From assembly GCA_013331575.1 (NCBI GenBank), contig DUGD01000086.1, positions 1,370-16,478 of the forward strand: a DNA stretch of 15,109 nucleotides, written 5' to 3'. A program made the translations under genes and the position numbers. The stretch is from Candidatus Woesearchaeota archaeon. Lineage in GTDB: Archaea > Nanobdellota > Nanobdellia > Woesearchaeales > UBA525. The first letter of the stretch is position 1; each line of letters starts with the position of its first letter. Below the pieces are notes generated by a model, which worked only from the letters and a program-made list of their open reading frames with translations, was not told the DNA's origin and ran no database searches. Positions 666 to 12,816 of the stretch are shown here, one piece after another.

Positions 666-704
666 GAGAAGGTGCGGTATCCATTTGGGAAAGGGTGAGA
701 TAGT

Positions 705-1112
705 ATGGCAAATAAAAAGTCAGTTTCCTCTAAAAAGACCACGAAGCGGCCTACCAAGACCGTCAAACGAAGCACCAGTGCCTCGTCGAAGACGAAGGCT
801 CCCGTGCAACGATCAACGACGCCCGTGACATCGCGTGTGCGCGTGTACAATTTGACGCGCGACATTCCGCAGGAGAAATTCTTCGTGCTTGCGAACGGCC
901 AGCCGGTGAAGAATGTCGCGGAGCTCGCGGCGATACTCGATCAGCTCGAGGACCACGTCTTCCACCACCACGTTACGCCTGACCGCAATGATTTCCACAA
1001 TTGGATCAGGGATGTATTCGAGGATGTGGAGCTCGCGCGCAAGATATCGGGTATCGGCGACAAAAAGCACTTGCAGCTCGTCATCTACCGTCATATGGCG
1101 GGACACGACTGA
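705..1112 (+). CDS. small glycogen-locus domain protein with basic tail (DUF5752-like)
   Basis: This is a 135-residue protein. Residues 1-45 are a basic, low-complexity tail of Lys, Ser and Thr. Residues ~50-132 form one compact domain with the pattern IPQEKFF...HHV..(D/E)+NDFHNWIRDVFEDVELA. The protein at 1330 carries the same domain (IPQEK.F, HV, NDFANWIR, LA), so the two are paralogous. From memory the pattern resembles a small domain annotated DUF5752 or left hypothetical in archaeal glycogen loci; I could not verify the name. No catalytic motif is evident. A domain with His-Val and Asn-Asp-Phe motifs next to glycogen enzymes suggests an accessory or binding role (inference). The start is set by the SD at 693-699 and the TATA box at 656-665. 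Confidence 0.8.
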   Translation: MANKKSVSSKKTTKRPTKTVKRSTSASSKTKAPVQRSTTPVTSRVRVYNLTRDIPQEKFFVLANGQPVKNVAELAAILDQLEDHVFHHHVTPDRNDFHNWIRDVFEDVELARKISGIGDKKHLQLVIYRHMAGHD

Positions 1113-1236
1113 GCCGCATCGATACGAGTGTATCACGCGTAGATAATCGACGCGTAATAATATCACGTCATAGGCCGCAGGTCCTGGGCCCCTCACCCGC
1201 GCCCTCCTCCGACCATTCCCCGTTTCCACCGCTTTC

Positions 1237-1276
1237 GCAATCCTTTTTTCGCTCCTCCTTTGCATTCCTCATTTGA
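1237..1276 (+). terminator. pyrimidine/T-rich terminator region
   Basis: After the 705 gene stops at 1112, the gap to 1329 is strongly pyrimidine-rich. A run CCTTTTTTCG near 1240 and further T-rich segments run to 1275, consistent with archaeal oligo-T termination. No other element is clear in the gap. Confidence 0.3.
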
Positions 1277-1329
1277 CGTCGTTATTTTCCCCGGAGAGGT
1301 GAGATTCTTCGGGTACTAGGGGGGACCTC

Positions 1330-2085
1330 ATGGATATTCCGCAAGAAAAACAGTTCCACTTCCACGATGGCACCGCTGCGGCCGACATCGAGCAGCTCAT
1401 GCGTAAGATAGAGACCATCAGCTACCAGGAATTCTATCGTCATGTGAACGCCGAGAAAAACGATTTTGCGAACTGGATACGCTACGTCGTGAAAGACGAT
1501 CGTTTAGCGGATGACTTGCAAAAAGTCGGCAGCATCGTCGAGACTGTTGAGATATTGGAGAGCCATCTGCGCCCGAGACCTGTGATCGCGTCACGCGGCG
1601 ATATTCAATCGCGCATCGAGGACACCGTCATCGGATCACCCCTTCCCGCGCTCACCGATGATGAACCTGCCGTGTTCGAACGACGAAGCATGCAGTCCTC
1701 TCCGACGGCACCGCAATCACAATCTCGGGACTCGCACCGCACGGATGACGGTTTCAAACCGATCGACTTGCATATCATCGAAGAGAAGCTCGGCTTGCAT
1801 GATGACGCGCATCGACCGGCGGGTAGACCGCAGGAACTCCTGCGTGATCAGAAGGTGCGCGATGAGCTCTTCGGTCCCGAGAATCGCGCGCGCGCGACAC
1901 TCGATCGGGACGCCGATACAGACGCCGGTACTGCTGGACGCGAAGCGGGCGATACGCGCGGGTCCGTACCGTCGTCACACAACATCGATAATGATACGAC
2001 AAGGCTCATCGTCAAGGATTTCATCTACGGTCTCATCTTCGGTCTGGTCCTCGGGCTCATCTTGGGGCGGTTGATCTCCACATGA
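1330..2085 (+). CDS. tail-anchored protein with the same small glycogen-locus domain
   Basis: This is a 251-residue protein in three parts. Residues 1-~88 are the same domain as in the 705 protein (IPQEKQFHFHDG, then HVNAEKNDFANWIRYV and LADDL). Residues ~90-225 are a hydrophilic, charged, probably disordered linker. Residues ~228-249 are one membrane helix, with glycines at 234, 238, 242 and 246 giving a G-x3-G-x3-G-x3-G zipper. With no N-terminal signal and the helix at the extreme C-terminus, it is probably tail-anchored with the domain in the cytoplasm. The zipper suggests helix packing and oligomerisation. A G-rich AGGGGGG at 1318-1324 sits five bases before ATG 1330, and an in-frame stop at 1300-1302 limits the start. 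It could tether glycogen enzymes or particles to the membrane (inference). Confidence 0.8.
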   Translation: MDIPQEKQFHFHDGTAAADIEQLMRKIETISYQEFYRHVNAEKNDFANWIRYVVKDDRLADDLQKVGSIVETVEILESHLRPRPVIASRGDIQSRIEDTVIGSPLPALTDDEPAVFERRSMQSSPTAPQSQSRDSHRTDDGFKPIDLHIIEEKLGLHDDAHRPAGRPQELLRDQKVRDELFGPENRARATLDRDADTDAGTAGREAGDTRGSVPSSHNIDNDTTRLIVKDFIYGLIFGLVLGLILGRLIST

Positions 2086-11783: not shown

Positions 11784-12197
11784 TCACTTGCGCTTCTTCT
11801 TCCGTTCAGCGGCAAGCTCCTTCTTCGCGTGCTCGAGCTCGTGCTCCAAGCGGTGCAATTCCTTGTGGTGCTTGTGGTCCGCGAAGATGTAATAGAAACT
11901 GAGCGGCACGAACAGGATGTACGCGAACTGCATCGCCGGATGGAAGAGTATCGCGCCGAAGTTGATCCCGAAGAGCACAAGCGCCTCGTGCGCGTGTTCT
12001 GCTGCGTGTTCGCCGGCCTGTTCCTCGATCGCGTACCCTAAGACGCCGAGCGCGGGCAGCAAGTGCGAGAGCGTGTGGACGACGCTCAGCACGCCTAGCG
12101 CGATGACCGCCCATACGCTACCGCCCGCGGCCGCGGACGATATGCGATACATGATGCCTCTCTTCTTTTTCGATGAATCGTGAATGCAATGTTCCAT
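11784..12197 (-). CDS. His-rich three-helix membrane protein, probably Fur-controlled
   Basis: This 137-residue protein is divergent from the fur-like gene. It has about three hydrophobic segments: ~27-55 (VWAVIALGVLSVVHTLSHLL), ~72-88 (LVLFGINFGAILFHPAM) and ~90-106 (FAYILFVPLSFYYIF). A His/Lys/Glu-rich tail follows (DHKHHKELHRLEHELEHAKK, 107-126) and ends in KKKRK. Fourteen histidines are present, including EHAAEHAHE (63-71) between helices 1 and 2 and His41/His45 inside helix 1. That is suited to metal binding or transport. The ATG at 12197 is 26-27 nt from the shared TATA box (leaderless). An internal ATG at residue 16 has GAGAGG before it and is an alternative start. A Fur box lies between it and fur. 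A metal-uptake, efflux or sensing role is inferred; the family is not recognised. Confidence 0.7.
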   Translation of the reverse strand: MEHCIHDSSKKKRGIMYRISSAAAGGSVWAVIALGVLSVVHTLSHLLPALGVLGYAIEEQAGEHAAEHAHEALVLFGINFGAILFHPAMQFAYILFVPLSFYYIFADHKHHKELHRLEHELEHAKKELAAERKKKRK

Positions 12198-12218
12198 GCG
12201 GACCGAGTATTGACGTAT

Positions 12219-12228
12219 ATTTATAAAT
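12219..12228. promoter_or_regulatory. palindromic TATA box shared by two divergent genes
   Basis: ATTTATAAAT is a perfect palindrome. Its centre (12223.5) lies 27.5 nt from the fur ATG (12251) and 26.5 nt from the divergent ATG (12197). One TATA box therefore fits both leaderless starts. Confidence 0.7.
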
Positions 12229-12230
12229 GA

Positions 12231-12249
12231 ATTGATATTCATTATCAAT
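12231..12249. promoter_or_regulatory. Fur-box-like operator
   Basis: ATTGATATTCATTATCAAT is a 7-5-7 inverted repeat. Its core TGATATTCATTATCA (12233-12247) matches 13 of the 14 fixed positions of the classical 7-1-7 Fur box (TGATAATnATTATCA). It covers the predicted fur transcription start and the likely BRE of the divergent gene, so bound Fur could block both. Confidence 0.7.
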
Positions 12250-12250
12250 A

Positions 12251-12661
12251 ATGGGGCGCGTATCGAGAGCGACGAAGCAGAAGCAGTCGATGGCTGGCGC
12301 GGTCGAATCGCAACGCGCATTTTTCACCGCGGCGCAACTGCACAAGATGGTCTCCGACGAGATAGGCATCGCAACGGTCTATCGCTACCTCAAAGACGAG
12401 GCGAAACGAGGGAGGCTGCACGCGTACAGTTGCGGCAAGAGCACGATATACTCGACCACGAAGAGCGCGCACTGCCATTTCCTCTGCACGCGGTGCAAAC
12501 GCGTCGAGCATATCGCCATCGAGGAGGCGCATTTCCTCAAGAGCGTGCGCGCCGGCACAGTATGCCACTTCCAGATAGATGTCCACGGGATCTGCAACGC
12601 GTGCCTGCGTGCGCAAGGCGCTTCGATTGTGCACCCCCACGCGCAACGGAAGACGTGTTGA
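12251..12661 (+). CDS. Fur-family metal-dependent transcription regulator
   Basis: This 136-residue regulator has an N-terminal winged helix (~10-70) with recognition segment IGIATVYRYLKDEAKRGRL (38-56). That matches the SxATVYRxLxxLxxxGL pattern of Fur proteins. The C-terminal dimerisation and metal domain carries HCHFLCTRCKRVEHI (74-88) and GICNACL (113-119). Cys79/Cys82 and Cys115/Cys118 form the structural zinc site of many Fur/Zur/PerR proteins. The metal sensed (Fe, Zn, Mn or peroxide via Fe) cannot be told from sequence. The N-terminus is shorter than in bacterial Fur. The start is leaderless, with the shared TATA box 27 nt upstream, and the Fur box at 12231-12249 implies autoregulation. 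A Cys-rich microprotein follows 17 nt downstream in the same operon. Confidence 0.88.
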   Translation: MGRVSRATKQKQSMAGAVESQRAFFTAAQLHKMVSDEIGIATVYRYLKDEAKRGRLHAYSCGKSTIYSTTKSAHCHFLCTRCKRVEHIAIEEAHFLKSVRAGTVCHFQIDVHGICNACLRAQGASIVHPHAQRKTC

Positions 12662-12678
12662 TATCATTGAGGGATAGT

Positions 12679-12816
12679 ATGGGTGTCATCATCAAACCGA
12701 ATAACAAGTGCTGCAATTGCAAGCACTACATCGATTCCATGTGCGCGAAACGCAGCGTCCCGCGCTTTTGCGGCGCGAGATACGAGCGCAAAGACGACGC
12801 TGATACCGCGGTGTAG
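12679..12816 (+). CDS. Cys-rich microprotein in the fur operon (45 aa)
   Basis: This is a 45-residue ORF with ATG at 12679 and TAG at 12814-12816. GAGGG (12669-12673) lies five bases before the start, and the gene begins 17 nt after the fur stop, so it is probably co-transcribed. Cysteines at 11, 12, 14, 22 and 31 give CxxC (11-14), then CKHYIDSMC and FCGARYE, a layout typical of small metal-binding (zinc or iron-sulfur) knuckles. The C-terminal third is charged and acidic. There is no membrane segment or signal. Its place behind a metal regulator suggests a small metal-binding or metal-buffering protein, or a Fur partner (inference). I do not recognise the family. Confidence 0.65.
   Translation: MGVIIKPNNKCCNCKHYIDSMCAKRSVPRFCGARYERKDDADTAV

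Follow-up and report, generated by a model that had tools for sequence, protein, structure and literature searches.

Bacterial Zur regulons, in which zur accompanies znuABC, ZIP/zupT and COG0523 genes, resemble the archaeal locus described here in having a Fur-family regulator, a 7-1-7 palindrome and targets of the zinc-uptake type, as laid out in the available portion of a review on Zur (PMC6103462). In contrast to these bacterial systems, the present locus has an archaeal TATA promoter, a zur gene divergent from its target over one TATA and a variant Cys/His set. The same portion of the review mentions 'archaea' once and indicates that autoregulation appears to be confined to those zur genes that form part of operons (PMC6103462). 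The predicted archaeal zinc uptake regulon of Methanosarcina ZntR likewise comprises znuABC and COG0523, but its regulator is MntR/DtxR-like and thus comes from another protein family; according to the accessible text of that 2009 paper, recognisable Fur or Zur was absent from the archaea then sequenced (PMC2770081).

Two-way promoters have been described as well. In Pyrococcus furiosus, one TATA drives transcription in both directions, with starts 49 bp apart from one promoter in vitro, and its bidirectional BRE-TATA-BRE promoters are akin to the present arrangement in placing one TATA between two starts ~50 bp apart; however, the second RNA is assumed there to be non-functional antisense, whereas our locus has genes on both sides and a built-in repressor box (excerpted text of PMC6640164). 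Bidirectional promoters of E. coli also comprise a symmetric core element read both ways, and AcrR can act on both RNAs, but they employ the bacterial -10 element and a sigma factor rather than TBP/TFB; the available part of this 2026 paper states that nothing was known about the control of bidirectional promoters (PMC12825309). The parts of our locus are of known kinds. For their combination, and for a Zur regulon or a shared-TATA promoter in this archaeal group, we found no report among the open-licence PMC papers listed by our searches.

One TATA element and a Fur-type box between two start codons

In the window (the whole stretch of 15,109 nucleotides that was analysed), the palindromic TATA element ATTTATAAAT can be read directly at 12219-12228 as a single copy, with 0.01 copies expected by chance and a copy present in 2 of 200 shuffles. 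Its centre at 12223.5 is separated by 26.5 nt from the leftward start codon (an ATG on the minus strand, first base 12197) and by 27.5 nt from the rightward one (ATG at 12251), in agreement with the coordinates and distances given by the first-pass annotation, and we read it as a TBP site common to both genes. The element ends 1 nt before a 23-bp box at 12229-12251 (plus strand), the window's counterpart of TTAYTGATTYTCATTATCAATAA, the last base of which is the A of the ATG of the rightward gene, read here as zur. Within this box lies the 19-bp palindrome ATTGATATTCATTATCAAT (12231-12249) with perfect 7-bp arms, itself enclosing the 7-1-7 Fur/Zur-type core TGATATTCATTATCA at 12233-12247 (plus strand), which differs from TGATAATNATTATCA by one mismatch and hence agrees at 13 of 14 fixed positions. 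None of 200 window shuffles gave a Fur-type match as good as this one, and no second site with at most one mismatch was present elsewhere in the window's assembly (1.63 Mb, 74.6% complete). The annotation's second observation, that a Fur-box palindrome stands beside a Fur-family gene, was confirmed by direct reading, by the shuffles and by the PF01475 match in the right gene. The sequence layout goes beyond chance and is conserved, but the palindromic TATA taken alone is not unusual; such an element is ordinary in archaea, given that the P. furiosus TATA consensus is WTTTAAAW (available portion of PMC6640164).

Since the gap between the two genes is short and AT-rich within a region of 59% GC, one could argue that it merely happens to contain a palindrome and a TATA. 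The shuffles, together with conservation inside and outside the order, reject this explanation, to which we assign next to no probability: the layout is correctly observed and is not due to chance.

Conservation of the box and of its spacings

A first round covered 58 genomes, the window's own included, with Fur-family matches in 13; nine similar Fur-family sequences, among them that of the window, were assembled into alignment A1. Searching with A1 at E <= 1e-20 yielded 62 orthologous genes in 60 of the 352 genomes of the order, indicating a patchy distribution of the regulator gene. By matrix match, the 23-bp box was found upstream of the regulator gene in 59 of these 62 loci (score cut of 10, the weakest accepted site being L057 at 14.5), the matrix having been trained on the same 62 loci. 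No box was detected by this search within 160 nt upstream of zur in L020, L025 and L066; in the last of these, a box lies next to a ZIP-like gene at ~290 nt upstream. The TATA-like element, sought at gaps of 0-6 nt only, is separated from the box by 2 nt in 54 of the 59 loci vs. 1 nt in the window, with some accepted matches being weak (e.g. L070). The information content of box and TATA columns reaches up to 1.8 bits, most others of the 90 columns being below 0.5.

Loci from other orders, which lie outside the matrix training, constitute the fair test. In a phylum sample of 371 genomes, orthologues were present in 51, ten of which belong to orders of the class other than that of the window, and at these ten loci both the box and a gap of 2 nt were found in 10/10 (TATA sought at gaps of 0-8 nt with ties given to 2 nt, one match, L153, having 6/8 positions). 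Box scores ranged from 20.7 to 32.3, while the best of 200 shuffles did not exceed 13.1 at any locus. The divergent ATG was located at 24.5-27.5 nt in 8 of the 10, the exceptions being L147, with its ATG at 104.5 nt, and L149, which showed no ORF. The conservation that the first-pass annotation had looked to relatives to supply is thus seen, with the palindrome and both spacings recurring in the order and in other orders.

Among the 59 box-bearing loci of the order, 57 carry a divergent ORF (taken as the longest one, of at least 80 aa), and in 45 of these an in-frame ATG occurs 25.5-27.5 nt from the nominal TATA centre (25.5 nt in 7, 26.5 nt in 24 and 27.5 nt in 14). By partner type, the ATG fits in 39/42 ZIP, 1/6 ZnuA, 1/3 CobW and 2/2 His-rich loci, and also in L069 and L072, but it does not fit where the neighbour is a TrmB or a dehydrogenase gene (L057 and L060, respectively). 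Judged by start codons, one TATA accordingly stands at start-site distance from both genes in the window as well as in relatives. The layout is a poor fit in G004, a genome of the same family and the closest relative to carry the regulator gene: its box is degenerate, with the divergent ATG at 34.5 nt and a TTG at 25.5 nt. Another result that fits less well is that the three same-genus genomes searched (G001-G003) contained no regulator orthologue. Regulator homologues bearing an organism name, among the best 120 listed, are mostly from Candidatus Woesearchaeota, with some from Nanoarchaeota and one from Thermoplasmatota, on which basis we regard the host as a DPANN archaeon of the Woesearchaeota type. 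As a separate observation, contig C35 of G240 has two zur copies ~4 kb apart (L030 and L051), facing ZIP and ZnuA genes respectively, with a separate box at each copy.

The TATA position of -30 to -23 reported for P. furiosus (accessible portion of PMC6640164), if it holds in this group, would make spacings of 25.5-27.5 nt indicative of leaderless transcripts. For the window, a leaderless leftward mRNA is thus predicted to begin at 12197 on the minus strand. Of the two leaderless genes proposed by the first-pass annotation, the divergent one is supported by these 45 loci, but the claim is weaker for zur, the ATG of which is close to the box end, 27.5-33.5 nt from TATA, in only 29 of 59 loci (window included), with short spacing on both sides in 18 under a slightly narrower limit. 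Below 27.5-28.5 nt, the distribution of zur distances breaks off sharply. In the other 30 loci the zur ATG is more than 34 nt from TATA, and in five of these (L034, L074, L076, L078 and L080) the box is followed by a further TATA-like element belonging to zur, as though the gene had been detached from the shared promoter. These longer spacings and second elements could be taken to mean that TATA and box serve the divergent gene only, with zur being transcribed from elsewhere and not autoregulated. We regard this as quite improbable, as the 29 loci with the short spacing leave no room for a second promoter between TATA and the zur ATG, and hence favor a promoter shared by the two genes.

Regulator, partner genes and the likely metal

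The rightward gene (12251-12661, plus strand) encodes a 136-residue protein with a FUR domain (PF01475, 41.7 bits vs. a cut-off of 23.1) and a model of mean pLDDT 81.1. Its membership in the Fur family is also reflected in PDB matches: by sequence, the best is M. tuberculosis FurB/Zur (2o03, 3.3e-14), followed by PerR (3.9e-14); by fold, it is the cyanobacterial zinc sensor 7ne9 (1.3e-8), again followed by PerR (1.8e-8). As controls, PF01475 matches were present in 13 of 14 genomes, three of them archaea. The NCBIfam Zur model PRK11639 did not match the window protein and matched 3 of nine members, with PerR models ranked first in NCBIfam but far below cut-off (39.6 vs. 200 bits). Of the presumed sensor residues, C61, H74 and H76 are kept in all 62 orthologues and H87 in 61, while the counts for C79, C82, C115 and C118 are 59, 38, 58 and 56, respectively. 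With another residue in place of C82 in 24 of the 62 orthologues, and with three proteins devoid of C79, C115 and C118, the usual structural zinc site seems to be altered or lost, with the presumed sensor residues staying in place. Two further observations concern other Fur-like sequences. The window's genome has a second FUR-like match (G000:C90:9232-9525) at 21.3 bits, below the cut-off, and 7-1-7 palindromes agreeing at 12-14 of 14 positions lie upstream of more distant Fur-family genes in L011, L013, L014 and L015 (perfect in L013), possibly marking a second, iron-type regulon.

By Pfam, the 57 divergent ORFs of relatives include 42 ZIP, 6 ZnuA and 3 CobW types, and no clearly iron-specific family is among the families listed for them. 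The nearest NCBIfam names of the partners are ZupT, AdcA/AztC/ZnuA and ZigA, the six proteins viewed singly all being below cut-offs, and the ZnuA-type partners are matched by manganese/iron models as well. The ZIP and ZnuA families are known to contain iron and manganese proteins, too. In L072, the ORF facing zur (694-1443, minus strand) matches nicotianamine synthase (PF03059, best E of 1.4e-11) and, below cut-off, CntL (3.8e-13), so that this partner could possibly be a metallophore enzyme under the zur switch. In L113, L118 and L119, additional boxes precede ORFs that were recognised by eye as resembling znuA or znuABC. Across the 352 genomes, matches with at most one mismatch number 35, of which, by eye, 30 were assigned to zur promoters, including one truncated at a contig end, 2 to znuA-like genes and 3 to positions near other genes; allowing three mismatches gave 133 matches vs. 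~35 for a reversed control (hand counts), from which we conclude that many of the three-mismatch sites are due to chance. The window's own assembly has no convincing further box, and its regulon therefore cannot be read there.

Taken together, the predominance of ZIP, ZnuA and CobW/COG0523 partners suggests that the metal is probably zinc and not iron, and for this reason we prefer a zinc sensor to an iron Fur, in a departure from the Fur reading of the first-pass annotation. We infer the metal from these partners; Zur is likely the best reading of the regulator, but not a proven one. The same switch could conceivably respond to another signal, i.e. to Fe(II), Mn(II) or peroxide as in PerR, with the transporters importing that metal. 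Such a signal would be in keeping with the fit of the core to the classical Fur box, the closeness of PerR by sequence, fold and NCBIfam rank, and the Mn/Fe matches of the ZnuA-type proteins. However, the CobW/COG0523 and CntL-like genes and the nearest names AdcA/AztC/ZupT point to zinc, and the sensor set presumed for the regulator includes a conserved Cys, a feature typical of Zur sensory sites in the available part of the review (PMC6103462). On balance, we consider a non-zinc signal unlikely and retain zinc as the preferred reading.

The window itself is a variant locus in that the partner slot is occupied by a small, His-rich, probable membrane protein of 137 aa (11784-12197, minus strand). 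At the thresholds applied, neither Pfam nor NCBIfam yielded a family for this protein, PF02535 (ZIP) included, and three homologues were found among 73 database candidates. Its start at 12197 is likely but not certain, as the ORF is open upstream, with further ATGs at 12242 and 12152; for the near relatives P0121 and P0122 (136 aa), however, the predicted start is the one corresponding to 12197. A remote relative, L058 (a 97-aa ORF in G270, from another family; BLASTP E of 7e-7 for one comparison), takes the same slot opposite zur, with its ATG 26.5 nt from TATA. The window protein and L058 are the only convincing members of the family in the 352 genomes. Two other candidates with weak hits, L125 and L126, were dropped because the matching stretch contained stop codons or was short and confined to a repetitive tail, and because no box was present. 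The predicted structure of the leftward protein is too poor for use (pLDDT 57.5). Judging from the alignment, the conserved His residues would fit a metal role, with any assignment to zinc drawing mainly on position and composition. Closely 3' of zur, at 12679-12816 (plus strand), there is also an ORF of 45 aa, several of them Cys, for which Pfam gave no family even at E values as high as 1.

A proposed bidirectional, metal-repressed switch

Based on these data, we believe it quite probable that zur and its divergent gene have in common a bidirectional, metal-repressed promoter, most likely responsive to zinc. We surmise that TFB and RNA polymerase would use the TBP site at 12219-12228 facing either way, so that a leaderless leftward mRNA would start at ~12197 and a rightward mRNA at ~12251, the latter encoding the putative Zur-type repressor of the Fur family. 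A zinc-bound repressor dimer may cover ~12229-12251, i.e. the region between TATA and the zur start as well as the place expected for the leftward BRE, and by occupying both it is proposed to block both directions, excluding TFB and polymerase either way. When zinc is scarce, the repressor would come off, and both the leftward gene product and Zur would be made. If the zur start is indeed at the box end, the core would span about -18 to -4 of zur, while on the other side it would adjoin TATA where the divergent gene needs its BRE. What is seen directly is the arrangement of the sequence, how far it is conserved and which types of gene lie opposite zur in relatives; the identity of the metal, metal and DNA binding, the start sites and repression are what we infer in this scheme.

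A BRE for the leftward gene would fall within the left arm of the box. Read on the divergent strand, the consensus form of this arm agrees with RRAAA at 3 of 5 positions, an agreement that is weaker in the window, the left arm of which is GAA vs. TTA in the consensus. One column is biased in the direction expected of a BRE (Fisher p of 0.0005, the column having been chosen after looking). More tentatively, and with somewhat less than even confidence, we postulate a class-wide zinc switch in which one TBP site would serve repressor and transporter genes, a single Zur box would overlie one gene's BRE and the other's start region, competition between TFB orientations would set the ratio of repressor to transporter, and the transporter would be replaced in the window by a small, hitherto undescribed His-rich membrane protein for zinc acquisition.

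The layout suggests the presence of a Zur-type regulon in DPANN archaea, involving a group of regulators that was described in 2009 as missing from the archaea sequenced by then (available text of PMC2770081), and the slot opposite zur can be used for finding new metal-uptake genes. The element is short, and its mechanism would be testable with purified archaeal factors. Two-way transcription from one archaeal TATA was treated earlier as likely noise (accessible portion of PMC6640164); here, with genes on both sides and the geometry kept across many genera, it would be a functional case.
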